Shown piece by piece: positions 1,280 through 17,504 of a stretch of DNA of 26,588 nt. How positions within the stretch are numbered: the stretch's first letter is position 1; each line of letters starts with the position of its first letter. Below the pieces are notes generated by a model, which had not been told where the DNA came from, searched no databases, and saw only the letters and a list, made by a program, of their open reading frames with translations. This DNA is from a virus. Where the stretch lies: IMG/VR virus record IMGVR_UViG_3300029448_000342, positions 1-26,588 of that record, one strand, 5' to 3'. The position numbers and the translations under genes were made by a program.

Positions 1280-1287
1280 TATTTAAG
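1280..1287 (-). promoter_or_regulatory. Late-promoter-like box abutting the radical SAM gene at 1273
   Basis: CTTAAATA on the minus strand, 6 nt from the ATG. If used like a T4 late -10 box, transcription would begin at or next to the start codon. Confidence 0.4.
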
Positions 1288-1309
1288 ATAGTAAAGATTA
1301 TATAAAAAT

Positions 1310-3097
1310 TTATTGATAGTTTGCTAGGTTAACTATTCTGTCTACTTCTTCGTCAACGCCTGCGATGTTGAAACCGCTGTCTTCTTTTTTGTCTTCGTTT
1401 AAAGATTCTTTTACTTCAGTTTCTTCTTCTTGAAAAAATTCTTCTAATTTTAAACCTGCAAGTTCAATTGCATCTTTCAGTGTGTATTCTTTGTCGCCTA
1501 CCTTGAACTTGTCGCCTGCTTTCATGCCCGCCGCTTTGGCCTTTTGCACTGCCATTGCAAATTCATTACCTTCTGCTTTTGGTTCTTCGGCTGGAACTTG
1601 TAAAGCACTTTTTTCAATATTGTCTGCCCACTGCTCAAACTGTTCTGCTTCTTTTGGTTTTCCTTTTCTGTCTACTTTAGGTTTATATGCTCCTGGATCC
1701 ATTCTTACTTCATCTCCGTATTTTGGATTGGCCTGCATTTTTTTGTAGTCATCAATGTATCTTTTTGCTAATTGGATAGCAAGTTTCTTATTTTTCATAT
1801 AGTCTGCACTTGGTTCAAAGAATGGTGCTCCTTCTTGCTCTAGTTCATCAGCAACTCTAGAAGCAAAGTTTGCAATGTTGTCTTCTTCATCGCCTTTAGA
1901 TAAAATTCTTGATGCTATGTCTGACATTATTGATCCCAACATAGTATTTTTATTTGTAAATTTTGTAACTTTAAGCATGTTGTCTGCTGATGGGTCTTTT
2001 CTTAAAACTAATTTCTTTTCTGGATCATTTAAAAAACCTTGTACAACTGCACCGTAGTTTACAGGTGCCGGTGCTTTAGGTTCTTTGTCTTTGAATTCAC
2101 TCATTACTCTGTGAATCAAAGGTAAAGCATCTTCAACTCTACTGTCTAAATTTTTTAATGTAAATTTGTCTTTATAAGAATTTGCTGTTTCATCGTCTAA
2201 TTCAATTGCTTCTTGCTTTCTATAACCTTTACAACTTGATTCATAATGGCCTTGTTTTGATAAATTTTTAATATACATTCTTAAATTTTCAAGTGTCATT
2301 TTTGTTTGTTCAATTATGTCACCTGCATTGTCATTAAGTTGGTCTTTGTTAGAAGCATATCTTTGAAAGGAAGCCAGTTTAGCAATATCTTCTGAAGTTT
2401 GTATAATATGTTGACCAAAGTCATCGTGTGGTCTTCCACCATTTGCTACGTGTCTGGTCATTGCTCTAGCGCCTGCTAAATGGATCACAGGATATTTGAA
2501 TCTTTCACCGTCTTCGTTTTCAATGTATAATGAGTTAATGTGTCTTGATCTTGCACCAGGTACAGTTTCGTCAACTGGTCCTGAGTGTCTAATTATTAAT
2601 CTTGTTTTGTCTAGATTTTCATATGAACTTTTACGTGTGCCTGTTAAGCCTTCTTTGACTTCAACGCCTGCAAGTTTAGTAATTCTGTTTAGTTCTTCTG
2701 ACATTCCATCAGTATTTACCGTTTGTCCTGTGTCAGCCATATTTTGATAATCCTGCTTGGATAGGCTTGATTTAGTAATGTCTCTTATGTCAAACTTGAT
2801 TTGGTGCTCTACAGCAAAGTCTTTAAGTTCTTTTATAAAACTATACCAGTCTTTTTTGTCGTCTTCTTCAATTTTTGCTACCATGTCACGGTTATAAAAC
2901 ACTTTCATTGACTCACCATCAGCCAATGATATCGAAATTCTCCCAAATTTGTCCTCATCTTCTGTAAATTCAAAGTCAAAAAACACCGCTTTTTTTGGAT
3001 CTGCAGTGGCATTGCCCTGAGAATCACCAATAGTAATGTTTCCAAACTTGCTTCTTATTTTGTTAAACAGGTCGTTAGAGGTTTTTTCTGAGATCAT
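1310..3097 (-). CDS. Conserved T4-like phage protein of unknown function (595 aa)
   Basis: No enzymatic motif is recognisable. The N-terminal ~110 residues look globular, with acidic patches. A short NRITKLAGV segment follows at 137-145, then a mixed region of conserved appearance (about 165-330). The C-terminus is a charged, Lys/Glu/Ala-rich, probably flexible tail (about 450-580). It ends in VDRIVNLANYQ, which echoes the NRITKLAG segment. The same type of motif (ILKLAGV) occurs in the 320-aa protein at 6954-7916. Large charged proteins like this are common in marine T4-like phages and are annotated only as hypothetical or virion proteins. It sits between two radical SAM genes, so it is a candidate partner or substrate for them, but that rests on position alone. 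A CATAAATA box lies 4 nt before the ATG. Confidence 0.75.
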   Translation of the reverse strand: MISEKTSNDLFNKIRSKFGNITIGDSQGNATADPKKAVFFDFEFTEDEDKFGRISISLADGESMKVFYNRDMVAKIEEDDKKDWYSFIKELKDFAVEHQIKFDIRDITKSSLSKQDYQNMADTGQTVNTDGMSEELNRITKLAGVEVKEGLTGTRKSSYENLDKTRLIIRHSGPVDETVPGARSRHINSLYIENEDGERFKYPVIHLAGARAMTRHVANGGRPHDDFGQHIIQTSEDIAKLASFQRYASNKDQLNDNAGDIIEQTKMTLENLRMYIKNLSKQGHYESSCKGYRKQEAIELDDETANSYKDKFTLKNLDSRVEDALPLIHRVMSEFKDKEPKAPAPVNYGAVVQGFLNDPEKKLVLRKDPSADNMLKVTKFTNKNTMLGSIMSDIASRILSKGDEEDNIANFASRVADELEQEGAPFFEPSADYMKNKKLAIQLAKRYIDDYKKMQANPKYGDEVRMDPGAYKPKVDRKGKPKEAEQFEQWADNIEKSALQVPAEEPKAEGNEFAMAVQKAKAAGMKAGDKFKVGDKEYTLKDAIELAGLKLEEFFQEEETEVKESLNEDKKEDSGFNIAGVDEEVDRIVNLANYQ

Positions 3098-3101
3098 GCA
3101 G

Positions 3102-3109
3102 TATTTATG
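3102..3109 (-). promoter_or_regulatory. Late-promoter-like box abutting the 595-aa gene
   Basis: CATAAATA (7 of 8 to TATAAATA) lies between the TAG of the upstream radical SAM gene and the next ATG, with a 4-nt gap. It is the tightest spacing in the window. Confidence 0.5.
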
Positions 3110-3110
3110 G

Positions 3111-4646
3111 CTATTTTATGTATTTTCGACATTCTTCAAGTTGTGGTATGTAGTCTGACAATTTCGAGCCTCTTTTTTTGTCTAAAGTATCGTTGTAATA
3201 AAAAAAGTTTGATAATTTTTCTTTATCAAATGTATTATTTTTGGAGTAGTAATCATAAAGTGCATCAACAATTGTTTTTGCTCCTCTTTCTTGGTGATAG
3301 TAACATTTTGTTTCTTTTGCTTTTTTTAAACTTTTCAAAACTAAATTTCTATTAGGATGATTCCATGCTGACAATAAATCATGTCTATAGCCTGCGTGAT
3401 TAAGTTGAATTGTAGCGTATGGAAATTCTTTGTCAAAAAACTGCATAGTTTCTCCTATTTCGTGAACATTGTATATCGATATCACTGATATTATATGTAT
3501 TCCAGCACCATTTTTTTTCAACTTATGTATGTTCTGTATTTGTATTTTACTAGTTGTACCCCATCGAGAATATTCTGTTGTTTTTGGTGTTCCATCTATA
3601 CTACAAGTAAACCAAAGTTTAGGAAATTTTTTAAAAAGTTTAAACAATGGTTCACTGATTTTTACTGCATTGGTGTTTATATTAATTTCAAAATTTGTTT
3701 TGTTTTTATTAATACATTTTCGTAAAAAACCGTATACTTCTGGCATGACTGTAGGTTCTCCTCCAGCAATGTATACTCTTTTAATAGTGTCTAAATTTAG
3801 AAGATTAAAACTAGGAGTGTTCAGTATCGACTTGTCATAATCACTATGTGTTACTAATGCTTGAAATTTTTTATCTTTAATTGATTCTGTTTCTTTTTTT
3901 ATAAGGTGGCTGTACATTGGAGCACACATTCTACATTTTATATTACATTTATTTGAAGGCCTTACTTCAAAATAAACTGGATTTTGTAATTTTTGTAAGT
4001 CGTTTGTATTTTTAAGTTTTAATTTTGTAATCCAATCAAAACTATCGGTCCATCTCATATCTTTCATACCTTTTTTTTCAAAATCATAACACATTTGACA
4101 GCCGCTTAGTTTTTTTCCTTTTAGCATTTTTTGTCTCACTTTTAGGTAGTCAGGATCTGTTTTCCAATTTTTTATATCTTTTCTTTTTTTAATTCTAGTC
4201 CAATTTCTTCCGCATAGGTTTGTGTAACCACTTTGGCCATCGTGCATTAAAATCCATGGATTCATGCAAATGCTTTTGTTTTTGTTAAAAATTTTTTCCC
4301 AATTATATAGATATTGCATATTGTTTTTGTTTTGTACTTCAACGGAGACACCTGCTTCATTTAAATCATTTACAAGTTTCCACATGGCTAAAAAAATACG
4401 TGAATGTGAAAATTGCTCCTGCTTTTGATCTATAAGCACTACTTTAGAAAACAATTTTGCTTTTTTTATAATGTCTTTTTGTTGAAAAACTACTGGGCCA
4501 ATATGATAGCAACCTGATTCTAGTTTGTCTACTCCTTCTAAAGAACCTCTAAAAATAAGGTTGTTTTCTTTTGAAAATTTTTCCGTAAGTTTATGTCCCC
4601 ACGCATCCGCAGACGAGTTATCAGCAAGGCATAATACTTTTTGCAT
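3111..4646 (-). CDS. Twitch-type radical SAM protein (511 aa)
   Basis: The radical SAM core lies in the C-terminal half: C234-x3-C238-x2-C241 (NKCNIKCRMC), then AGGEPT at 294-299 and a strand with INTNA near 325. An extra cysteine-bearing region precedes it (C127, C145, C183, C186; ICMNPW...LCGRNW...CQMC), as in the twitch-domain radical SAM proteins seen in marine phages and bacteria, where it may hold a second Fe-S cluster. The first ~110 residues have no clear family but look like a Rossmann-like lead-in. The reaction and substrate are unknown; peptide or protein modification is the commonest role of relatives. The gene begins 15 nt after the terminase stop, with a TTTAAATA box between them and no Shine-Dalgarno, so it is probably expressed with the late genes. 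Confidence 0.85.
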   Translation of the reverse strand: MQKVLCLADNSSADAWGHKLTEKFSKENNLIFRGSLEGVDKLESGCYHIGPVVFQQKDIIKKAKLFSKVVLIDQKQEQFSHSRIFLAMWKLVNDLNEAGVSVEVQNKNNMQYLYNWEKIFNKNKSICMNPWILMHDGQSGYTNLCGRNWTRIKKRKDIKNWKTDPDYLKVRQKMLKGKKLSGCQMCYDFEKKGMKDMRWTDSFDWITKLKLKNTNDLQKLQNPVYFEVRPSNKCNIKCRMCAPMYSHLIKKETESIKDKKFQALVTHSDYDKSILNTPSFNLLNLDTIKRVYIAGGEPTVMPEVYGFLRKCINKNKTNFEININTNAVKISEPLFKLFKKFPKLWFTCSIDGTPKTTEYSRWGTTSKIQIQNIHKLKKNGAGIHIISVISIYNVHEIGETMQFFDKEFPYATIQLNHAGYRHDLLSAWNHPNRNLVLKSLKKAKETKCYYHQERGAKTIVDALYDYYSKNNTFDKEKLSNFFYYNDTLDKKRGSKLSDYIPQLEECRKYIK

Positions 4647-4653
4647 ATAAAGT

Positions 4654-4661
4654 TATTTAAA
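4654..4661 (-). promoter_or_regulatory. Late-promoter-like box abutting the 511-aa radical SAM gene
   Basis: TTTAAATA directly follows the terminase TAG and lies 7 nt before the next ATG. Confidence 0.38.
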
Positions 4662-6257
4662 CTATGTGCCGAGGTTGGCAAAAATAGGCATTGGCGCAGT
4701 GTATTCAGATGTCCTGTTAGTCCACTGTTCAAAAATTTTAGGATCAAAATCTGCTAGGACTTTCATCATACGTGTTGCTAACAGACATGCACTTACTAAA
4801 TCGTCGTGTTCTCCTGGTTTGCCTTTATAACTTACTCCTGTTGCAACAAAGTTTTTAAGTTCTGTTATCAAAGGTTTGGAGTTTATTTCCATTTTGTTGT
4901 TTTCTACTAGTTCTTTAAATTTTGCACAAGCGTCAATTTTGTGTTTTGCAGTGGTGTTAAATCCTCTTCGAAACTTTCTTCTATGTCCTTTTCTAATTGG
5001 CTCACTTAAAAACATACCCATAATATTTTCTTCTCCGATGTCCATTACTCTCATCAAAGCGGCCTCACCAAGTGTGTTGTTTTCCATACTATAAAAGATA
5101 CTAGGTGACGCAGTTGAATCTTGTTCCATTATTGTATCATGAATGTATTTTGTTATGCTTTGTAAAATTCTAATTTGCTGATTAGCCGGTGTTGTGTTGT
5201 GATGCCACTCGCCGACCTGTTTAAATGTTGGTAGTTCAAATATTTGTATGGCCGCATAATCTCCACCTGTACCTAAACTTGGATCAAGTGCTACCATATA
5301 TGTGTGTTTTGCTTTTGGTTTCGAATACCATCTTACTTGGCCTTGATTCCAAATAGGATCTACGCCTTCTAGTTCAACTAATCTTACACTGTTTATTAAT
5401 GTTTCATCATAGATTAAGAATTCACATTCATGTTCTCTTCTAAATCTTTCATCGCCAATTCTTGATTTTTCTTGTTCTGCCCATGCTTCATTTCTGTCAG
5501 GATGTTCACTCCAATGTGCTTTCATGGCATAAAAACCATTTGTTCCAACAACATTATCATTTCCAAAGTCATCGAATCTTTTTTGTGCTTCTTTCCAGAT
5601 CAAAGCAAATTGATCTTCATCTGAATTGGGTGTTGACGTAATTAAACATTTACCACCTGTGGACAGTGTTGGTGATAGTGATGTCCAAAACTCAACTGCT
5701 TTTTCTGGTGGTTGAACGAATGCAAACTCATCACAATAGATTAATGTTAAGGACATACCCCGTCCTGTGTTTTCAGTTGTGGTGGTTGCCATAATTTTTG
5801 AACCGTTGTCAAATTCAATACTGTTTCTATTGTATTGTGTTACACCTGCCTTAATCCAACTTGGCAACATTTCATACGCATAACGTACTCTTGACATAAT
5901 GTCAGAAGCACCTGCATATTTGTGTGCGGCAATTAGTATCTGTGAATCTGGCTTGAACATAGCATACCATATTAGATAACCTGACGCACAAGTAGTTTTT
6001 CCTGTTTGCCTAGGCAACATAGCAATGCTAAATCTATGATCGTTGTAACTTTGTATTAGCCTTTTTTGATAATCATAAGGTTTAAAAGCCATTGATCCTT
6101 TTGTTGGATGTTGTATTTGCATGAAAGTTTCCATAAAAAAAAGTGGACCATTTTTTTCGTCCATACACTTTTCAAGTTGTAACACTTGATCTTTTGTGTA
6201 TTTGTGTTTCTTATTGGCTTTTTTAATTTGTTCGCTGTCTAATGATACATATGCCAT
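4662..6257 (-). CDS. 17: Terminase large subunit (gp17-like)
   Basis: This is the packaging motor ATPase and headful nuclease that pumps DNA into the prohead through the portal. The 531-aa protein is complete. It carries Walker A at about 82-89 (PRQTGKTT), Walker B at about 172-177 (LIYCDE, with the catalytic Glu), and a coupling motif at about 206-211 (ITSTPNS). The RNase H-like nuclease domain follows, with acidic residues at Asp325 (ALDPSLG), Glu391 (SMENNT) and Asp484/485 (EHDDLVSA). Length and motif order fit cyanophage-type gp17. No intron or intein interrupts it. It lies 16 nt downstream of the oxygenase-like gene. No clear Shine-Dalgarno or TAAATA box precedes it, so it may be read from the upstream promoter. 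Confidence 0.97.
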   Translation of the reverse strand: MAYVSLDSEQIKKANKKHKYTKDQVLQLEKCMDEKNGPLFFMETFMQIQHPTKGSMAFKPYDYQKRLIQSYNDHRFSIAMLPRQTGKTTCASGYLIWYAMFKPDSQILIAAHKYAGASDIMSRVRYAYEMLPSWIKAGVTQYNRNSIEFDNGSKIMATTTTENTGRGMSLTLIYCDEFAFVQPPEKAVEFWTSLSPTLSTGGKCLITSTPNSDEDQFALIWKEAQKRFDDFGNDNVVGTNGFYAMKAHWSEHPDRNEAWAEQEKSRIGDERFRREHECEFLIYDETLINSVRLVELEGVDPIWNQGQVRWYSKPKAKHTYMVALDPSLGTGGDYAAIQIFELPTFKQVGEWHHNTTPANQQIRILQSITKYIHDTIMEQDSTASPSIFYSMENNTLGEAALMRVMDIGEENIMGMFLSEPIRKGHRRKFRRGFNTTAKHKIDACAKFKELVENNKMEINSKPLITELKNFVATGVSYKGKPGEHDDLVSACLLATRMMKVLADFDPKIFEQWTNRTSEYTAPMPIFANLGT

Positions 6258-6273
6258 AGTATATTACTTATTT

Positions 6274-6924
6274 CTATTCATCACCAGTTTGTATTATGAT
6301 ATAGTCTTTAAAATCTATTCCACTGGATTTAAAATTATTGCTACAATGTGGTTGTGATCTTCTTCCCCTAAAAGCATTACCTTTTGTCCATTCACCTATT
6401 CCGTCCAGTTTTAAAAAATCAATAAGTTTTGGATTATGATAGTAAGCATTAGTTAAGTCTAGTTCGTTCCTTAAATTATTTGTTTTTTCTTTTGTGTCAA
6501 AATTTTGTGCGGAAATCCAATTGTCAAATATTGGTTCGAATACCTTTTCATTGAACCAAATTGTTTTTATTTTTTTATTAAATGTTAAAGGTATTATAAT
6601 AGTGTCTCCGTCTCTTTTATCTTCTGCAATATCAACATGCACAGCAATTGGTAAAATTCCTCTAGCAAAATTCATATATGATCCTTGTAAAATTTTCTTT
6701 GGTATCCCAAAACTTGCTATGGCTAACATAATTTCTTTTCTTATTTTTTTGTCTATGATTTCACCCCTTTTAGATTGATAGTCTTTTTCTTTATCTATAC
6801 CATAAAGATTTTTTAAAATTTTTTTATTACATTGCCATTGAAAGTCATTAAACTTTGGCAAACTTTCGTCAAAATATATCCTGAATTGATCAATTATATC
6901 GTGTGGAATGGTAATGTTGTCCAT
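6274..6924 (-). CDS. 2OG-Fe(II) oxygenase-like protein (216 aa)
   Basis: The central part reads LPIAVHVDIAEDKRDGDTII, with a His96-x-Asp98 pair and a following double strand (TIIIPLTF...TIWFN). A distal His193 lies in RGRRSQPHCSNNF, followed by a strand (DYIIIQT). This HxD...H order fits the iron-binding facial triad of 2-oxoglutarate-dependent dioxygenases that are frequent in marine T4-like phages. The downstream residue expected to bind 2-oxoglutarate (Arg/Lys) is not certain; Lys199 or nearby residues are candidates. The substrate is unknown; hydroxylation of a protein side chain or a nucleobase is possible. It sits between a virion-type gene and the terminase gene, with a CTTAAATA box 5 nt before its ATG, which argues for late expression. 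Confidence 0.65.
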   Translation of the reverse strand: MDNITIPHDIIDQFRIYFDESLPKFNDFQWQCNKKILKNLYGIDKEKDYQSKRGEIIDKKIRKEIMLAIASFGIPKKILQGSYMNFARGILPIAVHVDIAEDKRDGDTIIIPLTFNKKIKTIWFNEKVFEPIFDNWISAQNFDTKEKTNNLRNELDLTNAYYHNPKLIDFLKLDGIGEWTKGNAFRGRRSQPHCSNNFKSSGIDFKDYIIIQTGDE

Positions 6925-6929
6925 ACAAC

Positions 6930-6937
6930 TATTTAAG
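6930..6937 (-). promoter_or_regulatory. Late-promoter-like box abutting the oxygenase-like gene
   Basis: CTTAAATA, 5 nt before the ATG, in the 29-nt gap after the preceding gene. Confidence 0.4.
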
Positions 6938-6953
6938 GATGTCTAAGATAAGG

Positions 6954-7916: not shown

Positions 7917-7917
7917 G

Positions 7918-8523
7918 TTATCTTCTCTTTGGATCTGGATGTTCGTTTTTTGGTTTTGTAAATGGACTTGGTGTTCCTTTTTCGTCTTTGTCCATGTGTT
8001 TTTGGTCAGGTTCTTTTTTTTCTGCCTCAACTTTTTCTTGTCTGTCTTTTAATAATTCTTTGAATAAACTTTTGTTTGCTTCATCTCCAAATGCTTTTTC
8101 TTTAGGCAGTTCTGGAGTATCTTTATATTCTAGATCTTGTAATACTGATCTAAATTCGTTTTCGTCTTTTTCTTTAGCCATATTGTCTTGATATTCTTCA
8201 GTTGGTTCACCTGGCTTTCTCACAACCACTTGATTTCTTGCTATGTTCATGTAATTGGCAATATATTCTGACATTTCAAAAACAGACGCAGGATAATTTG
8301 TTGTCAATTCGAAAATTGTTACATTAGTATTTTTAAACATAGGAAAATCTAAAGGTGTCTCTTGGATTGGCGTTGTTTTGCCTGCTGAAAGTTTTGCAAC
8401 TTCAAACTTTTGTAATCCTTGTTCTAATTTTGTGCCAAAATCTTTGTCAAGTTCACCCGCAATTTTGATACGGTAGTCGTATTGTGTAGTAGATTCTGCT
8501 AGATACTGTGTAAAATCACCCAT
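7918..8523 (-). CDS. Conserved T4-like phage structural-type protein (201 aa)
   Basis: This is a two-part protein. The conserved-looking N-terminal half (about 1-110) begins MGDFTQYLAES and includes YRIKIAGEL, a TPIQETPLDFP segment, a VTIFEL strand and VVVRKPGEPTEEYQ. The charged, disordered tail is rich in Lys, Glu, Asp and Pro. The N-terminal pattern is common among uncharacterised proteins of marine T4-like phages, near terminase and gp16. No catalytic residues are evident. It is placed directly after gp16, and its ACTAAATA box overlaps the gp16 stop. A head-assembly role is likely from context only. Confidence 0.68.
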   Translation of the reverse strand: MGDFTQYLAESTTQYDYRIKIAGELDKDFGTKLEQGLQKFEVAKLSAGKTTPIQETPLDFPMFKNTNVTIFELTTNYPASVFEMSEYIANYMNIARNQVVVRKPGEPTEEYQDNMAKEKDENEFRSVLQDLEYKDTPELPKEKAFGDEANKSLFKELLKDRQEKVEAEKKEPDQKHMDKDEKGTPSPFTKPKNEHPDPKRR

Positions 8524-8531: not shown

Positions 8532-8539
8532 TATTTAGT
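8532..8539 (-). promoter_or_regulatory. Late-promoter-like box overlapping the gp16 stop codon
   Basis: ACTAAATA contains the TAA stop of gp16 and lies 8 nt before the next ATG. Confidence 0.4.
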
Positions 8540-9059: not shown

Positions 9060-9064
9060 GGTTT

Positions 9065-9888: not shown

Positions 9889-11288
9889 TATATATTTGCC
9901 TTCTCTGCTACGATGTTTACGTTTTGTGTTACCCTATTAATTTTTATGTATCCATCTGCTACTAGTCCTTGTATATCTGTAGTTACTTGATCTCTGTAAA
10001 CGCTTTTTTCATTGTCAGTCAAGGCGGCATACGCCACGTCACTTTCTGCAATGGTTAACGAGTTTCGAGATCCAATTTTTTGATAATATAAAGCACTTGC
10101 AACTCTGTCTTTAGCAACTGTGTTTGTGTTAATTAAATTTTGTGCTTCTGCTGGTGACAGTATATTTGTGTATTGGCCGACATTATTGTTCACTGTTGTG
10201 TTATTTTCTGTACTGTTAGAATCCACATATCCTTTTGCTGTAGCAATAGCCGCTCCAGCCGCAACCGCGGTAACCGCCGCGTTACCTACACTAAAATTGC
10301 CTACAGGATTTGTAATGGTTCCTGCCTGTTTACCTATATCTAGCACACCTTCTTTTACTATTCCTTTAAGTTCTTCTTTGACTGCATCTTTGGCTTTAAT
10401 TTTTTTTGCATTGTTGTAAGTGTTTATACCTTTCAATATTGTTGCAACTCCAAATCTGCCTGTTTGGACATCTTCAATCACTGACCCAATACCGTCAACT
10501 ATGCCACCTGGCCCAAATATACTAGTGGTTCCACCACCTAATACTGATAAAGGTGAAGGTTCTAAATCATAATGTATTGTTGCAAAGCCAGGTACGCCAC
10601 CATTCTTAACCAGTCCTGCACCGTATAGTACAGTTTCATAAAATATTTGCATGTTGTTCTGCATAACACCTTGCCCATCTGCTTGATCTAATCCGTCATG
10701 TGACCATGAACCAATAATTGGATTTACAAGTGTAAAAGAAGTAAATCTTTGCTTATGTAATGCAAAAATTTGAATTGATTTTAGCAAAGGTTCTTTTCTT
10801 TTTTGTGCATTATCCATACCGAATTGTGTTACATTTGGATTGGGATCGTACATATTGTCTTGCGTTCCGAATCCTACTGTGCCAGGCTGTGTAGTTAAGG
10901 AATCTGCTATATTATACTCGTAATATGCTTTCCAAAATGCATTAACTGTGTCTGCATGATCATCGTGGAAATTTATATTGACAGGACTGTAACTAATTTT
11001 TGTGCCGATGTATGTCTTTTTGTTGTATTGTTGTTTTTCTTCTATGTTCATGTCATACTTGGGAAGGTCGCAAGATCTTACAAGCATGTTTAGTTCTAAT
11101 CTTTCATTATTAGTAAATCTTCTTACTGGAATATTGTTATCGATATCAAAAACAACATGAAACAGAAATTTCTGTTTCGGCATAAGTTTAAAGTTGTCAT
11201 CGAAGTATAATCTACTTGCATGACGATAGTCCTTCATGCCTGGTAGACCATTGGAAAATGCATTTAAAAAATTGTTAATACTTGGCAT
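9888..11288 (-). CDS. Tail-tube-fold baseplate/tube protein (gp48/gp54-like)
   Basis: The 466-aa protein has an N-terminal domain with tail-tube character: KFLFHVVFDI, SCDLPKYDM, a YNKKTYIG...ISYSPVNINFHDD stretch, SFTLVNPIIGSWSHD and MQIFYETVLYG. These match the order of strands in gp19-type tube subunits, as in the tube initiator and cap proteins gp54 and gp48. The C-terminal ~200 residues are Gly/Ala/Asn-rich. It probably starts tube polymerisation at the baseplate; whether it is gp48 or gp54 cannot be decided. The frame is open to a Met at 11306, but that codon abuts a terminator U-tract with no ribosome site. I prefer Met7 at 11288 (MPSINNFLNAF), which has GGTAAATA 5 nt upstream like many genes here. 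Confidence 0.7.
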   Translation of the reverse strand: MPSINNFLNAFSNGLPGMKDYRHASRLYFDDNFKLMPKQKFLFHVVFDIDNNIPVRRFTNNERLELNMLVRSCDLPKYDMNIEEKQQYNKKTYIGTKISYSPVNINFHDDHADTVNAFWKAYYEYNIADSLTTQPGTVGFGTQDNMYDPNPNVTQFGMDNAQKRKEPLLKSIQIFALHKQRFTSFTLVNPIIGSWSHDGLDQADGQGVMQNNMQIFYETVLYGAGLVKNGGVPGFATIHYDLEPSPLSVLGGGTTSIFGPGGIVDGIGSVIEDVQTGRFGVATILKGINTYNNAKKIKAKDAVKEELKGIVKEGVLDIGKQAGTITNPVGNFSVGNAAVTAVAAGAAIATAKGYVDSNSTENNTTVNNNVGQYTNILSPAEAQNLINTNTVAKDRVASALYYQKIGSRNSLTIAESDVAYAALTDNEKSVYRDQVTTDIQGLVADGYIKINRVTQNVNIVAEKANI

Positions 11289-11293
11289 AACTG

Positions 11294-11301: not shown

Positions 11302-11306
11302 GCCAT

Positions 11307-11336
11307 AAAAAAAGCGCCAAAAAAGGCGCTCTTTTT
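11307..11336 (-). terminator. Rho-independent terminator after gp19
   Basis: On the minus strand, stem AGCGCC/GGCGCT with a T6 loop is followed by at least six T residues. On the plus strand the mirror also has a C-T5 run, so it could work both ways. It lies between the gp19 stop (11359) and the tube-like gene, and should end the gp18-gp19 transcript. Confidence 0.85.
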
Positions 11337-11358
11337 ACTTTACAAATGCAAAATTTGT

Positions 11359-11985
11359 TTAGATACCACCACCAGTTGCTAAAGTACCAATGGTTCTAGT
11401 TACTGCTGTTCCTATTCCTGTACCTGTTGGAGTTTGAACTGCGTTGTCGTATCTCACGTTCATTGTGATTGTTGCTGGATCTGATGTTGCATAAGCCAAT
11501 GAATTGTAGTTCACTGATTCTATGTATGCACCATACAACTCAAATGTTTCTAACACATTTGGTGTACTAGCACCGTTTCCACCGTCAAGCATTTCAATTC
11601 TTGAAGTAAATTTGTAGTCAATTCCTGAAGCGGCACTTGATTGCTCAAAGAAATCAAATTGTTTCTGTACTTGTTCGCCAACCAATTTAGTAACAGCGTT
11701 GTTTACGTCATCTCTTACTGTGATTGTTATTGGATCCCAAGTGTGTTTGCCTGCCATGTAAACTTTTGAATTGTAAACATCTAATGTTACGTTGTCAAAA
11801 GTTAAATTTGGTCTTGAACAATCAACTACTTGTTTTGTTAGTTCTGATCTAGGAGTAGATACACCAAAGTTTTCTAATATCACTCTAAATCGATATTGTA
11901 ATTTTGGCATCAACAAACCTTGTGATGCTGAACTTTGATCGTTTGCTAAAGGAACTGTAAATTTTGATAAAGTTGATATTGCCAT
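11359..11985 (-). CDS. 19: Tail tube subunit (gp19-like)
   Basis: This is the main subunit of the inner tail tube through which DNA passes. The 208-aa protein reads like marine T4-like gp19 throughout: GLLMPKLQYRFRVILENFGV (about 24-43), TKQVVDCSRPNLTFD, VYNSKVYMAGKHTWDPI, VGEQVQKQFDFFEQSSAASG, and IDYKF...LETFELYGAYIESVNYNSLAY. It is longer than T4 gp19 (163 aa) because of insertions and a Gly/Thr-rich tail. It begins 25 nt after the sheath stop and has both an AATAAATA box and a clear AGGAGA ribosome site, so it can be made in excess over the sheath transcript. A terminator follows it. Confidence 0.93.
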   Translation of the reverse strand: MAISTLSKFTVPLANDQSSASQGLLMPKLQYRFRVILENFGVSTPRSELTKQVVDCSRPNLTFDNVTLDVYNSKVYMAGKHTWDPITITVRDDVNNAVTKLVGEQVQKQFDFFEQSSAASGIDYKFTSRIEMLDGGNGASTPNVLETFELYGAYIESVNYNSLAYATSDPATITMNVRYDNAVQTPTGTGIGTAVTRTIGTLATGGGI

Positions 11986-11995
11986 ATGTTTCTCC

Positions 11996-12003
11996 TATTT
12001 ATT
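11996..12003 (-). promoter_or_regulatory. Late-promoter-like box before gp19
   Basis: AATAAATA (7 of 8 to TATAAATA) lies 10 nt before the ATG, and AGGAGA fills the gap. It is the only start-adjacent box that also has a Shine-Dalgarno. Confidence 0.5.
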
Positions 12004-12009
12004 CCAAAA

Positions 12010-15000
12010 TTAGTTTCCTAAATTTGCAATCTCTCCTGTGTTTTTGATTCTTAAAGGTATGTAGATAAATTCAACTGATTTTACTGGTTCAATTGCTATA
12101 TCAACATACAATTCGTTTCTGTCTATTCTAGTAGGTGTGTTGTTTGTGTCATCACATACTACCAAGAAGTCGAACAATGCTCTTTGACCAACAAGTTCTA
12201 ACAAGAATGATTCAACTGCTTGTTTAATTTCATTTCTAGTCAATTCATCATTTGGTTCGAAAATGAAAGGTTTAGCAATTGCGTCTAGTTGTGATCTTAA
12301 AAATACAACTAATCTTGAAACGTTAATTCTATCTAAAGCACTAGATCCTGAAACTTTAGTTAAGTTACCAAAGTTTACAATACCTGCTCCTGAGAAGAAC
12401 GTTATTGGATTTACTTTTGCTGTGTGTAAAGCATCTCTCGCTGATTCAGTTAATGATACTGTCTCAAATTCACCTGTTGTAGATTCAATATATCCTACTC
12501 CAGTTGCATTGTCAACTATACCTCTTCTGGTTCCTGCTGGTGCAAACCATGGGAATCCAATGTTGTCGTTGTTAGCCAATGTTCTTAGTATCATATGAGA
12601 TGGTGGAACAATTATAGTTGAGCCTGCATTATCAGTGGTTTGACCCGATGGATAAAATACTCCAAGGTGTTCACTTGCAGACACTAGTCCGTCTTCACCG
12701 TCTGCCGCGGCTCCTGCTGAGTTATTTGCCCAGTTGCTCACTGCTGTAGATGTTCCTGCCAGTCTTAATGGTGTATCACCTACCACAAACGCTGTGTTGT
12801 TTCTGTCTGTGTTTAGGTTAATCATGTTAGAAATAACTTCTGGATAACCAGGACAAGCAATTACATTAAAGCCTCTTTGATCTTCTCTAATTGCTTGGTT
12901 TGTGTCTATTTCTGATTTAAGTTGGTTTACTATTACTTGTCTCTGTGCTTTTCTACCAAATGTGCCACTACCATCAGCATTGTTAGTAGATTTAGTTACC
13001 CATCTGTCTGGATAGTAACCTGCAACTGATTCGTTGCTTGATCTAATATTACCTAGGCCAGTTGATCCTGATCCAGGGTAGATTGCTGTAGTAACATAAT
13101 CATTTCTGTATTCTTTTACATTGTATCCAGATCTTCTAGTATTGAATAACAACATACCTTTTGGATATAATGCTGGATCTGGAGCATCTGGATCTAAGTG
13201 GTTATCACTTAAAAGATCCTTAATTGAAGATGCTGTTCCTGCACCTGTGTTGCCATCAGCATCTTTTTCTGCTGTTGTTTGCCATCTAGCGTCAGCAAAC
13301 ACAACACCGTCTTCTGTGGTTTGGTCTGTTTTGTCAACTAGTTCAAAAGCGGCACCTGTTGTTGTAACAGTTGTACCATTGGATGTGTTAGTTGAACTCA
13401 ATGTAGCAGATGTGTTATATCTGTAAAGTTTTGGATAATTTTCTAAATCAGAGGTGTCAATCCATAGATCGTTATTGACTAATGGAGTTCCATCTGATTG
13501 AGAAGTTGGTTCTGTTGCACTAAATTGTGGACCGTTCGGATCAGTGCCACTGTTAACATTTAAGTAGCCTCTGAAACTTGTGCCATCGTGCTCTAAGATA
13601 TCAGCATCTAAGTTTGTGTTGTACCATAATTTTCCATTGCTTGGTTCATTAGTTGGTGCTGATGAACTTGCAGTGTATGATAAACGTTTAAAGTTAGATG
13701 CAATTATTGTTGCTGGAAGAGCAGTTGAATCTTCTGTAGCACCTGCTGGAGCATCATACAAATTATCAATTAATGTTGTGCTGTTAGCAGTGTAGGTTCC
13801 ATATGAATGAGCAGTTGAGGCACTAAAACCTGCATCTGCTAATGGAGTTCCTGATGTGTCGTACATTCTAAACTCTCCGCCTAGTTTGTGTTTGATTTCA
13901 ATTGCACCTTTTAAAGCACCTGAATCAATAACTCTGGCTTCAATGTTTGTAAATCCAGCATTTGAAATTGAAGTTACAAAATCTTCTGAATCAGATCCTG
14001 TAGAATCTCCCGGACCTACAATTGTAACTGTTTTGCTTGATAATGCTGATTGTCCTTTAAGAGACTCAGCAAGTACAAATGTTTCGTCTTTTACAAATAC
14101 TGGTGCAGTGTTATTACTTTGAATAATTGTTTCTCCACCTTCATATCTAAATACTTGGAAGTCACCAACTCTTAGTGTTGTGTCTCCGTCATCCACTGCA
14201 TTTTGTTCTGCAACATTAAATTGCGTGTATAGTGTTCCTTCATCAATTGAAGTACCACCGTTGTTTGGATCTAAGTTAAAGATTGCTGTGTGATTGTTTT
14301 CATGTAATGGTGCATCAACAGTAGAAAAAGTTGCAGTGCTAGCATTATATAATTTAACAACAATATCTGCTCCTGAATTAGGAGTTGTTGTTTTAAACCA
14401 TAAAGAACCGTTTGGTCTATTGTCTTCTGCTGTTTTCCAAGTTGGTCTATTAGAATGTTTCTTTTGTTCGAAACTTACACCTTTATAAACACCTGCGGTT
14501 AAACCTGCTACGGTCAATATTGTACCTGTTCCGTTTTCAAGTCTAATTGTGTTTGCACCGCCTACTGAATCACCGTAGTTAGTACCGTTGTGATATATTT
14601 CAACTTTACCTGTTGTAGAATCAACTGCGGCAGTTACTCCTTCAATACTTGCGTTGTTGATTGAAGTAGCCAAAGCGGCAAACGTTGTACCTGATAAAGT
14701 TACTGTTGCATCATTTATTTTGATTGTGTTTCCGTTGACTAAAGTGCCTGAAGTTGCTGTACCTTCAATTGTTGGCCAACTAGTGTGCCAACTTGTTGAA
14801 CCTACTTGTACCCAACTACCTGTGTCGTTTTTGTAATAGATCGGATTTGTAACAGCAGTTGTGTTAATAGCATACTGACCGTTTGATCCATAACTTGTTT
14901 TTGGAACACCTGTTGATACATTTCCTACAAGGTTAGTAACTGATGTAATAAGTTTAGGTGTTATTGTTGTAAATGATTGATTTGTTTTTGACCATTCGAA

Positions 15001-15441
15001 TAATCCATATACTGAACTCGCTAAATCAAACCAGTATGTGCCATCGTTTGGTGCTGAAGTTGGTGCTGAAGTTGATCCAACTAATTCTGTCATGTTTACA
15101 TTGGCTCTTAAAATGAACGCTTTGTTGGCAACTCCAAGGAATGAGTAAGCCGCTTGTAAACCATATTCGTTTAGTTCGTAACCGTTTATAGCACCACCTG
15201 CTGAATCCGTATAAAATTTTGGATCCCCAAATGTTTCTGTTAATTCTCTTTGTGATGATATCAAGAATGCTGTATTAGCATTTGCAGTTTGTGTGCCAGA
15301 CGCTGTGCCGTCACCTGCTCCGTTTTGTTTGTCTTGACCTGATGCTACTATTATAAGTGGAGTTGTACCTGCATCTGATGGTACGTAGAAACTTTCATCT
15401 ATTACTGAAACGTTTACTCCTGGACTAGTTAATGTTGCCAT
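12010..15441 (-). CDS. 18: Tail sheath protein (gp18-like), unusually large with inserted modules
   Basis: The contractile sheath subunit is shown by its N-terminus (MATLTSPGVNVSVID) and its conserved C-terminal domain. The latter runs from about 830 to 1143, including GFNVIACPGYPEV, KVNPITFFSGAGIVNFGNLT, VVFLRSQLDAIAKPFIFEPND, and the ending YVDIAIEPVKSVEFIYIPLR, which is typical of marine T4-like sheaths. The protein is 1143 aa against 659 aa in T4. The extra length (about 120-790) is filled by repeated short modules of the form pxxGtLWyxT...lyxydGtxW, for example at about 123-165, 185-213, 340-375, 592-628 and 642-700. These probably form a decoration on the outside of the sheath. It has an AAGGAGA ribosome site 9 nt upstream and a perfect TATAAATA box. 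Confidence 0.93.
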   Translation of the reverse strand: MATLTSPGVNVSVIDESFYVPSDAGTTPLIIVASGQDKQNGAGDGTASGTQTANANTAFLISSQRELTETFGDPKFYTDSAGGAINGYELNEYGLQAAYSFLGVANKAFILRANVNMTELVGSTSAPTSAPNDGTYWFDLASSVYGLFEWSKTNQSFTTITPKLITSVTNLVGNVSTGVPKTSYGSNGQYAINTTAVTNPIYYKNDTGSWVQVGSTSWHTSWPTIEGTATSGTLVNGNTIKINDATVTLSGTTFAALATSINNASIEGVTAAVDSTTGKVEIYHNGTNYGDSVGGANTIRLENGTGTILTVAGLTAGVYKGVSFEQKKHSNRPTWKTAEDNRPNGSLWFKTTTPNSGADIVVKLYNASTATFSTVDAPLHENNHTAIFNLDPNNGGTSIDEGTLYTQFNVAEQNAVDDGDTTLRVGDFQVFRYEGGETIIQSNNTAPVFVKDETFVLAESLKGQSALSSKTVTIVGPGDSTGSDSEDFVTSISNAGFTNIEARVIDSGALKGAIEIKHKLGGEFRMYDTSGTPLADAGFSASTAHSYGTYTANSTTLIDNLYDAPAGATEDSTALPATIIASNFKRLSYTASSSAPTNEPSNGKLWYNTNLDADILEHDGTSFRGYLNVNSGTDPNGPQFSATEPTSQSDGTPLVNNDLWIDTSDLENYPKLYRYNTSATLSSTNTSNGTTVTTTGAAFELVDKTDQTTEDGVVFADARWQTTAEKDADGNTGAGTASSIKDLLSDNHLDPDAPDPALYPKGMLLFNTRRSGYNVKEYRNDYVTTAIYPGSGSTGLGNIRSSNESVAGYYPDRWVTKSTNNADGSGTFGRKAQRQVIVNQLKSEIDTNQAIREDQRGFNVIACPGYPEVISNMINLNTDRNNTAFVVGDTPLRLAGTSTAVSNWANNSAGAAADGEDGLVSASEHLGVFYPSGQTTDNAGSTIIVPPSHMILRTLANNDNIGFPWFAPAGTRRGIVDNATGVGYIESTTGEFETVSLTESARDALHTAKVNPITFFSGAGIVNFGNLTKVSGSSALDRINVSRLVVFLRSQLDAIAKPFIFEPNDELTRNEIKQAVESFLLELVGQRALFDFLVVCDDTNNTPTRIDRNELYVDIAIEPVKSVEFIYIPLRIKNTGEIANLGN

Positions 15442-15474
15442 ATGTTTTGTTCTCCTTGCAAGGTTCGTTATTGC

Positions 15475-15482
15475 TATTTATA
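15475..15482 (-). promoter_or_regulatory. Late promoter of gp18
   Basis: A perfect TATAAATA on the minus strand, 33 nt before the ATG, with a ribosome site between them. It would drive gp18 and gp19. Confidence 0.75.
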
Positions 15483-15538
15483 GTGAATACGGTAAAATAC
15501 CTTATAACTGTGGCTATTTTAGGTACCTATATAGGGCA

Positions 15539-15546
15539 CGTAAATA
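15539..15546 (+). promoter_or_regulatory. Late-promoter-like box before the HNH-type gene
   Basis: CGTAAATA on the plus strand, 6 nt before the ATG at 15553. It sits in the same 111-bp divergent gap as the gp18 promoter, which also holds a 10-bp palindrome TAGGTACCTA at 15520-15529. Confidence 0.4.
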
Positions 15547-15552
15547 CAACTA

Positions 15553-15903
15553 ATGAAAAGACCTTTATGCAAAACCTGTAGAAACAAGCCTAGAGCGTAT
15601 GCCTACAAAAAAGGCAAAACTGTCTATTGGCGAAGCCAATGTGATACTTGCATTAGAAAGAAAAACAAACTTAAAACAGGTTATGCGGCTAAATGGTACA
15701 AAGCCGGATATAGGAAGAAAAAAAGATGTGAATTGTGCGGCTTTAAACAAGCATCATCTGCACAAATGGATGTATATCATGTGGATGGAAACAGAGCAAA
15801 CATATCTGCTTATAACCTCAAAACAATTTGTGCAAACTGTCAGCGATTAAAATCTACGCAGAATCTCGGTTGGTCTCTAGGGGATTTGGAAGTAGATGAT
15901 TAG
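15553..15903 (+). CDS. HNH-type zinc-binding protein, possible endonuclease (116 aa)
   Basis: Four Cys pairs are visible: C6-x2-C9, C30-x2-C33, C59-x2-C62 and C93-x2-C96. Between the last two pairs lies YHVDGNRAN...YNLKTICANC (about 75-96). This is the layout of a zinc-bound HNH/His-Me finger, with His76 and Asp78 near the catalytic position and Asn80/Asn88 following. It is small and strongly basic, consistent with DNA binding. A free-standing homing nuclease or a packaging-associated nuclease are both possible. No intron is evident in neighbours, and no target can be named. Its last 50 bases overlap the end of the convergent dNMP kinase gene. It is one of few plus-strand genes here. Confidence 0.72.
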   Translation: MKRPLCKTCRNKPRAYAYKKGKTVYWRSQCDTCIRKKNKLKTGYAAKWYKAGYRKKKRCELCGFKQASSAQMDVYHVDGNRANISAYNLKTICANCQRLKSTQNLGWSLGDLEVDD

Positions 15904-16456
15904 TCATATCATAGATCTGTTTGTGTAGAGATTCAATTGTGTCTGTGTTTTCTAACACATAATCATAATCACAGCCAATCCAGTCCCATTCGGATCTATG
16001 GGCTCCTGCATCTATCATGTGTTGTTTGTTAGGCATTGTTGTACGTTTAACCAACACAATTTTACCGCCTTGTGCTCTGATCTGTTTTATTTCGTTTAAA
16101 AATCTTGTGTCTGATATCACAGTATTCTTGCCAGCATATCTTGCCATGCAGGAATCTACCCAAATACTATCAAGCATATTACCTCTACATACTTCTGTAC
16201 CAAAATACTGAAGTACCCATCTTGGAGTTGTGGGTTTTCCAAATTTGTTGCTCCAAAATTCATCAGGTTGTTCTCTCCATGCTCTCGATTCTTTAGTGTC
16301 ACCTTCTAGCATTTCTCTACTCCACCCAAAAATGTTTGACACAGCATCTTTTAAACTTTTTGCAAATGAATCCTGAATAAAGCCATGGTGAGACACCAGC
16401 CTATTGGCCACTGTGTCTTTGCCAGAGCCTATTAGTCCTACTAAACCTATCAACAT
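15854..16456 (-). CDS. Deoxynucleoside monophosphate kinase (T4 gp1-like)
   Basis: It phosphorylates dNMPs to dNDPs to feed phage DNA synthesis. The 200-aa protein starts with a P-loop, GLIGSGKDT at 7-15. It has the family's DSFAKSLKDAVSNIFGW stretch (about 29-45), a QYFGTEVCR segment, a strand plus VISDTRFLNEI (about 114-124), and a lid-type KRTT and late acidic region. Length and order match phage dNMP kinases such as T4 gp1. In T4 gene 1 is near gene 3 and the head/tail completion genes; here it is near the neck genes. No clear ribosome site or TAAATA box precedes it. It is probably read with the 59-aa gene 13 nt upstream. Confidence 0.86.
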   Translation of the reverse strand: MLIGLVGLIGSGKDTVANRLVSHHGFIQDSFAKSLKDAVSNIFGWSREMLEGDTKESRAWREQPDEFWSNKFGKPTTPRWVLQYFGTEVCRGNMLDSIWVDSCMARYAGKNTVISDTRFLNEIKQIRAQGGKIVLVKRTTMPNKQHMIDAGAHRSEWDWIGCDYDYVLENTDTIESLHKQIYDMTNHLLPNPLETNRDSA

Positions 16457-16469
16457 AAGTTTTAGTAGT

Positions 16470-16649
16470 TTAACAGTTTTTTATTCTTTTTTCAAGTTCT
16501 TTCTTGATTTCTCTTACAGCATTTAACATATGATATGTTATACGCCAATTGGGTCCTGCTTTTAACAGGATTTCAAATGCTATTGTCAATTGTTTAAGTT
16601 GTGTGTAAGATAATTTGGATAGAGTTTTGAAGTATTTTTTTTGTGCCAT
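16470..16649 (-). CDS. Small basic hypothetical protein (59 aa)
   Basis: An open frame of 59 codons starts at ATG 16649 (MAQKKYFKTLSKLSYTQLKQ) and stops with TAA at 16470. It is predicted to be two amphipathic helices joined at an AGPNWR turn, with a Lys/Glu-rich C-terminal helix ending KNC. It fills the 250-bp gap between gp13 and the dNMP kinase gene on the same strand, 13 nt before the kinase start. An AGGCACAAA stretch, also present twice in the gp32 leader, lies 2 nt before the ATG and may act as a weak AAGG ribosome site. Function unknown; a small regulator is possible. Confidence 0.5.
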   Translation of the reverse strand: MAQKKYFKTLSKLSYTQLKQLTIAFEILLKAGPNWRITYHMLNAVREIKKELEKRIKNC

Positions 16650-16707
16650 AATTTGTGCCTTTTGTTTGCCTGTTTAACAATTGTACTTATTATGTTAGTA
16701 GATTGAA

Positions 16708-17469
16708 TTAACCTATAACAAAACTATGAGGTGAGCCACCTTCTGCAAAGTTTCCAACTTCTGCATCAAGTCTTTCCATTTCAGCAAAGCCTTGCTGTTT
16801 GAGTTGGTCTCCGTTCAGAGTTGTTCCACCCTGCGGTCCTGCAATAGTATTGAATTTGCCTCTTGCTTCACCCAGCATGGTTTTACATACTGCAAGTGTG
16901 TAATCTCTGATCCACGGTTTGCTGTAGATATCTTTTAGTAAAGTTATGTCAGGTCTAAAATTATCAGTATGCATCAAGATTGTTTCGTTATCTGCTCTAG
17001 GTCTTTGTGTGATTGTCAGTTGTTTTGTCGCCACATCAAAATGAAACTGAATAAAAGATCCAAACAGTTTGCCCACTAATTCTTGGTAACTTGCAAAAGC
17101 ATAATAGGTTGCAAGACCACCTGTGGCACCTGCTCTTAGCAGGTATGTGTTGGTATAGGCTAGGTTAAATGGTTCAAACAAAGTTCCACCTTCACCACCT
17201 TCTGTTCTGGATCCCACAGTTCTTCTAAACAATTTTCTTACATTGATAATTTCATCAGGCAAAATGTATTTGTTCTGATTTTCTGTTAGTGTTAAAAAAG
17301 CATAGGATTCCTCCACAGCATTTGATGACTTTTGTCTATATCTGTTTATGGCTCTTTCTAGTGCAGTTTCATAGTGTTTTGGATCAAGTTCAACCTCGAT
17401 CATTCCTTCACCTAGGTTGTTTTTGACATAGTCAAACACTTCTTGTTGCATAGTTTGTAGTTCTGACAT
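16708..17469 (-). CDS. 13: Neck protein (gp13-like)
   Basis: gp13 binds the filled head and, with gp14, forms the neck to which the tail attaches. The 253-aa protein has the family opening (EVFDYVKNNLGEGMIEVEL, then a TALERAINRYR helix), a central YYAFASYQELVGKLFG segment and FHFDVATKQLTI. It ends with WIRDYTLAVCKTMLGEARGKF and the gp13 hallmark GGTTLNGDQLKQQG...MERLD. It is shorter than T4 gp13 (309 aa). I start it at ATG 17469 (MSELQTMQQ) rather than the longer frame. That frame begins at a TTG inside the divergent promoter region, and ATG 17469 has AATAAATA 5 nt upstream. Unlike in T4, it is divergent from gp14. Confidence 0.85.
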   Translation of the reverse strand: MSELQTMQQEVFDYVKNNLGEGMIEVELDPKHYETALERAINRYRQKSSNAVEESYAFLTLTENQNKYILPDEIINVRKLFRRTVGSRTEGGEGGTLFEPFNLAYTNTYLLRAGATGGLATYYAFASYQELVGKLFGSFIQFHFDVATKQLTITQRPRADNETILMHTDNFRPDITLLKDIYSKPWIRDYTLAVCKTMLGEARGKFNTIAGPQGGTTLNGDQLKQQGFAEMERLDAEVGNFAEGGSPHSFVIG

Positions 17470-17474
17470 ACTGA

Positions 17475-17482
17475 TATTTATT
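17475..17482 (-). promoter_or_regulatory. Late-promoter-like box for gp13
   Basis: AATAAATA on the minus strand, 5 nt before the gp13 ATG. It is the mirror partner of the plus-strand box at 17497. Confidence 0.55.
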
Positions 17483-17496
17483 GCCTTTGCCCTAAC

Positions 17497-17504
17497 AATA
17501 AATA
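17497..17504 (+). promoter_or_regulatory. Late-promoter-like box for gp14
   Basis: AATAAATA on the plus strand, 6 nt before the gp14 ATG. The two identical boxes are 14 bp apart, back to back, in a 41-bp gap. Confidence 0.55.

Follow-up and report, generated by a model that had tools for sequence, protein, structure and literature searches.

T4-like late transcription is a textbook system, in which promoters are usually drawn with a Shine–Dalgarno (SD)-bearing leader. The locus considered here, a 26,588-nt stretch of virus DNA (positions 1 to 26,588 of IMG/VR record IMGVR_UViG_3300029448_000342, referred to below as the window), raises the question of what a TAAATA box is doing immediately ahead of so many start codons. 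The window is a piece of a T4-superfamily jumbo phage genome and has no direct DNA match in the phage collection. Eleven of its 22 starts, on both strands, have TAAATA 4–10 nt ahead of the ATG, the gap being the number of nucleotides between the last A of the box and the ATG. The original prediction, made from sequence alone, had named these eleven boxes and all are present; it also held that ten of the genes lack an SD and that only gp19 (start 11985) has both, which is confirmed (AGGAG). Four further copies lie 33–75 nt ahead of starts 283, 15441, 21697 and 25443, and the strong SDs claimed for the first three were likewise found. The full TATAAATA element occurs only at 15475–15482 and 21735–21742. 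The terminase large subunit gene TerL (start 6257), absent from the original list, has a box with one mismatch, and its orthologues have TAAATA at 4–8 nt in 51 of 54 cases. The features are as follows.

359..364, minus strand: TAAATA, 75 nt before the ATG at 283 of a gene truncated at the window edge; leader with an AGGAGG SD
1280..1285, minus strand: late box TAAATA, gap 6, radical SAM gene 392–1273; kept in 2 of 4 aligned relatives
3102..3107, minus strand: late box TAAATA, gap 4, virion protein 1310–3097 (phrog_13484); at 4–8 nt in 37/37 orthologues, none with an SD
4654..4659, minus strand: late box TAAATA, gap 7, radical SAM gene 3111–4646; kept in 4 of 5 relatives
6265..6270, minus strand: degenerate late box TAAGTA, gap 7, terminase large subunit 4662–6257
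6930..6935, minus strand: late box TAAATA, gap 5, gene 6274–6924
8532..8537, minus strand: late box TAAATA, gap 8, virion protein 7918–8523; orthologues 45/48; the upstream gene ends on its TAA
9065..9070, minus strand: late box TAAATA, gap 5, gene 8535–9059; orthologues 46/50; the upstream gene ends on its TAA
11294..11299, minus strand: late box TAAATA, gap 5, tube-like tail protein 9888–11288; orthologues 47/47; directly behind a terminator-like hairpin
11996..12001, minus strand: TAAATA, gap 10, gp19 tube gene 11359–11985, whose SD the box overlaps
15475..15480, minus strand: late box TATAAATA, 33 nt before the ATG of tail sheath gp18 (12010–15441); AAGGAG SD in the leader
15541..15546, plus strand: late box TAAATA, gap 6, HNH endonuclease 15553–15903; orthologues 42/42
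16467..16495, minus strand: sigma70-type promoter TTGAAA-N17-TAAACT, its −10 ending 10 nt before the ATG of dNMP kinase 15854–16456
17475..17480, minus strand: late box TAAATA, gap 5, gp13-like neck protein 16708–17469; orthologues 35/35
17499..17504, plus strand: late box TAAATA, gap 6, gp14-like neck protein 17511–18692; orthologues 39/39
21735..21740, minus strand: late box TATAAATA, 37 nt before the ATG of structural gene 20660–21697, with an SD; far box and SD in 9/9 relatives
25504..25509, minus strand: TAAATA, 60 nt before the ATG of gene 21754–25443, without an SD; start unconfirmed, no start-matched relatives

TAAATA occurs 21 times in the window over both strands, and 11 of these copies are the start-proximal ones. 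When the 22 upstream regions were dinucleotide-shuffled, a mean of 0.39 genes had a box and the maximum was 5 in 5,000 shuffles, other A4T2 hexamers reached at most three genes, and of 967 non-start ATGs a single one has the box at 4–10 nt. The box fills −5 to −14, the slot an SD would use, so the absence of SDs from box-proximal genes is partly mechanical.

As the record spans only 27 kb, related IMG/VR contigs were used for wider counts. Across 660 ORFs from 80 relatives, gaps of 4, 5, 6, 7 and 8 nt occur 24, 70, 93, 57 and 14 times, a sharp peak flanked by nearly empty zones at 0–3 and 9–14 nt. Comparison of box counts with shuffles, a test set in advance, did not refute the prediction when run on the relatives G001 (21 versus 1.1), G011 (15 versus 0.75) and G020 (34 versus 3.6). 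The box is conserved gene by gene across orthologues (TerL, tube-like protein, gp13, gp14 and others), and these relatives are not independent, representing 13 late-box families and 3–4 sigma70 families. An SD of at least four bases is found in 12 of 249 proximal-box genes, 34 of 46 far-box genes and 145 of 300 genes without a box; many genes have neither signal, and the downstream genes gp15 and hyp9511 are clearly SD-dependent. In G020, a 326-kb relative, 34 genes have the box at 4–8 nt (SD in 3%), only two at 9–14 nt and 57 at 15–50 nt (SD in 65%), a bimodal spacing that represents avoidance of leaders too short for an SD yet too long for leaderless translation.

The start codons following the box in the relatives are ATG 417 times, GTG three times and TTG never, compared with 107, 62 and 17, respectively, after AGGAG (p about 1e-42). 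The −1 base is a pyrimidine in 79% of cases when weighted over the 13 late-box families, against 39% in SD families, and in the tube-like tail protein orthologues it is T without exception. A third-codon-position excess begins at codon 2, right after the ATG, which supports the called starts. The first two positions of the element (−13/−12 of the T4 consensus) vary in the clade, as is known for Aeh1 (PMC2988020), and the six-base core TAAATA is conserved. The positions, conservation and spacing of the box, together with the start-codon and −1 biases, are shown by these data.

The likely explanation, with no transcript 5′ end yet mapped, is that promoter and start codon are fused and the mRNAs leaderless. 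TAAATA would be the −10 of T4-type late promoters, recognised by host RNA polymerase with a phage gp55-like late sigma, and most late genes at the head of a transcript would have this promoter fused to them. If the box sits at −13 to −6, as in T4, a gap of 5 would make the A of AUG the +1 position, and gaps of 4–8 nt, as observed, would leave between 0 and about 3 nt of leader; such an mRNA, leaderless or nearly so, would be translated by recognition of its 5′-terminal AUG without an SD. Both ATG exclusivity and the −1 pyrimidine fit a +1 on the A of AUG. The marks of T4-type late promoters are present (TAAATA core, no −35, virion genes on both strands by PHROG annotation, including TerL, gp13, gp14 and tail proteins), as are those of leaderless genes (a −10-like signal about 10 bp before the start, near-exclusive AUG, and no SD, subject to the mechanical effect noted above). 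Leaderlessness is strongly inferred from box geometry, not shown; the 5′ ends and 70S leaderless initiation are inferences too, and the single-gene late promoters with leaderless or near-leaderless mRNAs originally proposed are supported in silico only.

Homologues of gp55 are present in clade contigs, MAG contigs and jumbo relatives; dependence on gp55 is inferred. The window's own 27-kb fragment does not contain the gp55 gene. A search for the clamp gp45 (phrog_223) found it neither in the clade's virus records nor in the complete genomes of Phosso, Atu_ph07, PA5oct and GAP32; it gave one weak match in MAG G017 and positive results for T4, Syn9 and HTVC008M. As no gp45 was detected in the clade, T4-like clamp activation is unproven.

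A second promoter class is shown at the same place. Non-virion genes (dNMP kinase, NUDIX) have TTGAnA-N16-18-TATAAT with TATAAT 5–7 nt before the ATG in most orthologues, the window's dNMP kinase promoter being degenerate. At this 5–7 nt peak a −35 matching at least 4/6 bases accompanies TATAAT in 90 of 93 cases (background 15.5%), whereas a TTGACA-like −35 accompanies proximal late boxes in 44 of 296, not above that background. In both dNMP kinase and NUDIX the −35 overlaps the upstream coding sequence or its stop. These genes would have sigma70-type promoters fused to AUG in like manner, and two different −10 elements in one place are consistent with promoters whose +1 falls on or close to AUG and not with a translation signal read in RNA. 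Pelagibacter-named MAG contigs showed no clear TATAAT peak near ATG, in a bin that is mixed. MAG co-binning places the contigs in bins labelled Rickettsiales, Pelagibacter, Betaproteobacteria and Gammaproteobacteria, and this spread means that no host is assigned.

The SD is kept by high-copy proteins, namely sheath gp18, tube gp19 and major head protein gp23. All 22 gp18 orthologues have the box 30–72 nt upstream together with an SD, and all 30 gp19 orthologues have an SD, with a box in only 21, at varied distance. The original prediction had counted gp19 among the fused-promoter genes; given these proportions, it is better regarded as sharing an operon with gp18 and using its own SD, its box likely secondary to read-through from gp18. 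In this arrangement gp18 would have a conventional late promoter and leader with gp19 behind it, and the presence of a leader would probably set yield, a dosage role that is inferred.

The rival that survives best, although unlikely, accepts the boxes as real late promoters and holds that most of the protein is made from mRNAs that are polycistronic or have a leader, or by initiation at a start codon further downstream, leaderless mRNAs being minor. Short intergenic gaps favour it, as do the overlap of the gp19 box with an SD usable by gp18 read-through and the SD reliance of gp15 and hyp9511. Against it, ten of the eleven proximal-box genes of the window offer a read-through mRNA no SD, the codon-2 excess backs the called starts, and the near-empty 9–14 nt zone and the exact gap of 5 in HTVC008M (see below) tie the box to AUG. 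Less tenable still is the alternative, raised with the original prediction and now disfavoured, that the box works at the RNA level, within a longer transcript, as an A/U-rich signal that binds ribosomes or S1 independently of an SD. The box does sit in the SD place in genes without one, and many boxes fall in the short spaces between genes of one strand, where read-through mRNA could carry them. However, the same box is kept far ahead of gp18 beside a real SD, a different hexamer with its −35 takes the equivalent position in other genes, relatives have the same box 15–50 nt away, other A4T2 hexamers are not enriched, and neither near-complete ATG use nor the −1 pyrimidine is expected of a leadered A/U signal. 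A chance or composition effect, suggested by the 36% G+C of the genome and its A/T-rich upstream regions, is all but ruled out by the shuffles, permuted hexamers, non-start ATGs and T4 and Syn9 controls.

Two other candidates were rejected. Phage bS21 as the cause of SD-free translation is found in G020, Phosso, Atu_ph07 and PA5oct and not in other clade fragments, and is not specific, since SD-led jumbo relatives also have it. A generic alphaproteobacterial host effect fails because leadered boxes are retained in phages that infect S. meliloti, Agrobacterium and Caulobacter.

Returning to the fused-promoter reading, the layout is absent in T4, Syn9, phiM12, Cr30 and cultured jumbo phages, the box lying about 15–50 nt from the ATG in Syn9, phiM12 and cultured jumbo relatives. 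T4 late promoters (gp55/gp33/gp45-dependent TATAAATA) share with the window the TAAATA core, use on both strands, late virion genes and lack of a −35, and the gp55 of T4 has its homologue in clade relatives. In T4, however, boxes lie about 9–50 nt before the ATG, with 0 of 247 genes at 4–8 nt, and usually with an SD, whereas the window clade has the box at 4–8 nt without an SD, −13/−12 not conserved and gp45 undetected. The nearest late motif described in related jumbo phages is the ATAAATA of CBB and GAP32 (RaK2-type; PMC5259590), which precedes structural genes in phages with a gp55-like sigma and no detected gp33 or gp45; unlike in the window, the GAP32 box lies about 20–50 nt upstream, and the bearing sections of that paper describe no leaderless layout. 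The NATAAATA late promoters of marine cyanophages S-PM2 and Syn9 (PMC2984593) show that the motif is common to marine T4-like phages and the window, but Syn9 has no boxes at 4–8 nt and a peak near 20–30 nt. Leaderless ‘TA-led’ bacterial genes (PMC3160421) and mapped AUG-starting S. meliloti mRNAs (PMC3616915) resemble the window in having a −10 about 10 bp before the start, AUG only and no SD; these are bacterial genes, mostly served by host sigma factors, whereas in the window clade it is a phage late promoter that supplies the −10, and most late genes standing first in a transcript share the layout. The open-access literature searched yielded no account of T4-like phages with leaderless late genes, though one elsewhere is not excluded.

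An uncultured, abundant lineage appears to have made a single element of promoter and start codon. This predicts that leaderless translation is a major mode of phage late expression, and it offers a compact rule by which the start codons and transcription units of these phages can be called. The fused layout may also account for the failure of an earlier search for late promoters in pelagimyophages (PMC7029224). A bolder reading, which as a whole we favour only narrowly, is that leaderless mRNA is a main mode for transcript-first genes in a large aquatic T4-superfamily jumbo lineage and, independently, in some SAR11 Kyanoviridae (HTVC008M, probably Mosig), with gp55-type late promoters, and in the jumbo lineage sigma70-type ones too, fused to AUG, the SD being kept for high-copy virion and operon-internal genes and the leader setting virion stoichiometry. 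Melnitz (OM43 host) has three proximal boxes, all at gap 5, a total not above shuffles, and Mosig has seven, six at gap 5 (shuffle mean 2.0, maximum 6). The cultured pelagiphage HTVC008M has 15 box-fused genes against a shuffle mean of 2.0, and 11 of them, at gap 5, match exactly the T4-geometry prediction for a leaderless start.

PHROG profiles identify the following structural and packaging genes in the window, which covers nearly all of a virus record of 27,046 bases:
4662-6257, terminase large subunit (TerL)
9888-11288, second tube-like protein
11359-11985, tail tube (gp19)
12010-15441, tail sheath (gp18)
They also identify a head closure protein, dNMP kinase (dNMPK), NUDIX hydrolase, HNH endonuclease, two radical SAM proteins and gp13-, gp14- and gp15-like neck or tail proteins. 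The closest sheath matches, all below 46% identity, are the jumbo phages Phosso (Sinorhizobium), Atu_ph07 (Agrobacterium), PA5oct and the CBB/GAP32 group; local gene order is common to the window and Phosso, and close relatives are encoded on hundreds of IMG/VR contigs. Taken together, these features place the window among the late genes of an uncultured jumbo phage of the T4 superfamily, for which MAG co-binning gave contradictory indications of host. The radical SAM genes (392-1273 and 3111-4646) sit amid head and packaging genes, each preceded by a late box, TAAATA, and align in few relatives (four and five, respectively).

The original prediction listed eleven starts with a late box 4-10 nt before the ATG, and all eleven held, with gaps (box's last A to ATG) of 6, 4, 7, 5, 8, 5, 5, 10, 6, 5 and 6 nt. 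These represent 11 of 22 starts, where shuffled sequences average 0.39, with 5 the most in 5,000 shuffles; other A4T2 hexamers occupy this position at no more than 3 starts, and only 1 of 967 non-start ATGs has a box at the same distance. TerL, absent from that list, has TAAGTA at gap 7; among its 54 orthologues, 51 carry TAAATA 4-8 nt before the start. The one listed exception, gp19, said to have both box and Shine-Dalgarno (SD), is recast as a probable operon partner of gp18, since the SD is kept in 30/30 orthologues while just 21/30 have the box, whose distance from the start varies. A terminator-like G+C-rich hairpin with a T-run (11307-11338) lies behind gp19, directly before the late box of the tube-like gene. 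At the divergent gp13/gp14 pair (17469-17511), each strand has its own late box, the two separated by about 18 bp, an arrangement kept in relatives (loci L101-L135).

Among 660 distinct ORFs from 80 relatives, TAAATA occurs at gaps 4, 5, 6, 7 and 8 in 24, 70, 93, 57 and 14 cases. Gaps of 0-3 are nearly empty and those above 8 hold isolated values only, apart from a small peak at 10 which is gp19. When relatives' starts were aligned to window proteins, the proximal box was present in every orthologue of virion protein 1310-3097 (37/37), the tube-like protein (47/47), HNH (42/42), gp13 (35/35) and gp14 (39/39), and in 45/48 and 46/50 orthologues of two further genes. Far boxes accompanied by an SD were found in 22/22 gp18 orthologues (30-72 nt) and in 9/9 relatives for structural gene 20660-21697, and the operon-internal gp15 and hyp9511 have an SD and no proximal box. 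The relatives are phylogenetically dependent, and box-fused genes lack an SD partly for mechanical reasons. Differences in codons 2-11 concentrate at third positions in TerL, gp13, gp14, tube-like, p16202 and dNMPK, indicating that coding begins at the called ATG.

A second, sigma70-type promoter class is also fused to start codons, again on sequence evidence. The non-virion dNMPK and NUDIX genes of relatives lack TAAATA and instead have TTGAnA followed by TATAAT 5-7 nt before the ATG, a layout seen also before the relatives' portal gene. TATAAT gaps peak at 5-6, with 49 and 35 genes respectively. A -35 that matches TTGACA in at least 4/6 positions at spacing 16-18 accompanies 90 of the 93 proximal copies, where the background rate is 15.5%; late boxes have no such -35, TTGACA-like sequences occurring in 44/296. 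In dNMPK and NUDIX this -35 runs into the coding sequence lying upstream or into the stop codon of that sequence. The window copy of the dNMPK promoter is degenerate:
16456-16495, minus strand, dNMPK promoter (TAAACT, gap 10; TTGAnA-N17-TATAAT in orthologues, loci L002-L180)
Just upstream of dNMPK lies an unlisted 59-aa ORF (16470-16649, minus strand) that overlaps the dNMPK -35 at its 3' end.

The T4 late-promoter consensus lies at -13 to -6 (PMC2988020), so gap 5 places +1 on the A of AUG; the sigma70 -10 hexamer lies at -12 to -7, so gap 6 does the same. For both elements the observed modes are 5-6. Transcription of box-fused genes would thus be predicted, from geometry and without transcript 5'-end data, to begin at or near this A, giving leaderless or near-leaderless mRNA. 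Homologues of the late sigma gp55 (phrog_234) are widespread in IMG/VR. Within the clade they occur in contig G012 and in MAG contigs that share bins with clade TerL contigs; they are also present in Phosso, Atu_ph07, PA5oct, GAP32, SCTP-2, T4, Syn9 and HTVC008M. Searches for the T4-type clamp gp45 (phrog_223) were negative in the virus records of the clade and in the complete jumbo relatives Phosso, Atu_ph07, PA5oct and GAP32, in agreement with the CBB paper (PMC5259590). A T4 sigma role is therefore probable, as inferred from gene content, while the T4 activation mechanism is not supported; activation of late genes may need no T4-type clamp, or may rely on one that escaped recognition.

Five observations speak for a promoter and against the alternative reading, that the box acts in RNA as an A/U-rich translation signal. 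First, the identical box is kept far upstream where an SD-bearing leader exists, and second, there is the TATAAT class. Third, starts after proximal late boxes are 417 ATG, 3 GTG, 0 TTG and 2 CTG, against 107, 62, 17 and 8 after AGGAG; in E. coli leaderless translation non-AUG codons are much less efficient, and mapped leaderless mRNAs of S. meliloti all begin with AUG (PMC9031893, PMC3616915). Fourth, a pyrimidine immediately precedes the ATG in 79% of cases across 13 late-box families, weighted by family, and in 39% across SD families. Transcription typically starts with a -1 pyrimidine and +1 purine, so a start on the A of AUG would produce this bias. Fifth, box distances in G020, a 326-kb relative, are bimodal (34 genes at 4-8 nt, 2 at 9-14 and 57 at 15-50), with an SD in 3% of the 4-8-nt genes versus 65% of the 15-50-nt genes, suggesting that leaders too short for an SD yet too long for a leaderless start are avoided. 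G020 also encodes ribosomal protein bS21 (134235-134390), as do Phosso, Atu_ph07 and PA5oct. The predicted layout is thus confirmed, and its interpretation as promoters yielding leaderless mRNAs is supported in silico only, without TSS data. On this reading a T4-type late promoter is merged with leaderless initiation.

In relatives, the sheath gp18 (far box), tube gp19, major head protein gp23 and protease gp21 are SD-bearing; at TerL, gp13, gp14 and portal a fused promoter takes the place of the SD. This fits a role for the presence of a leader in stoichiometry control, although few gene functions are sampled and there are no expression data.

Unlike the clade, cultured jumbo relatives, T4, Syn9, phiM12 and Cr30 have most of their boxes 15-50 nt before the start and next to none, if any, at 4-8. 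T4 and Syn9, with no such genes, differ in this from HTVC008M, a cultured Pelagibacter phage of another family (Kyanoviridae) than the window phage, which shares the fused layout in 15 genes (shuffle mean 2.0, maximum 6). The gap is exactly 5 in 11 of these 15, which include an annotated tail-completion gene, and 8 at the gp13 gene:
NC_020484 positions 6280, 7562, 11972, 19456, 31132 and 75830, examples of proximal-box genes
Because HTVC008M has the layout and T4, Syn9 and the cultured jumbo relatives do not, at least two independent origins seem likely. A general trait of alphaproteobacterial phages was rejected given the distribution across cultured phages. Mosig has seven proximal genes, six at gap 5, and Melnitz three, all at gap 5.
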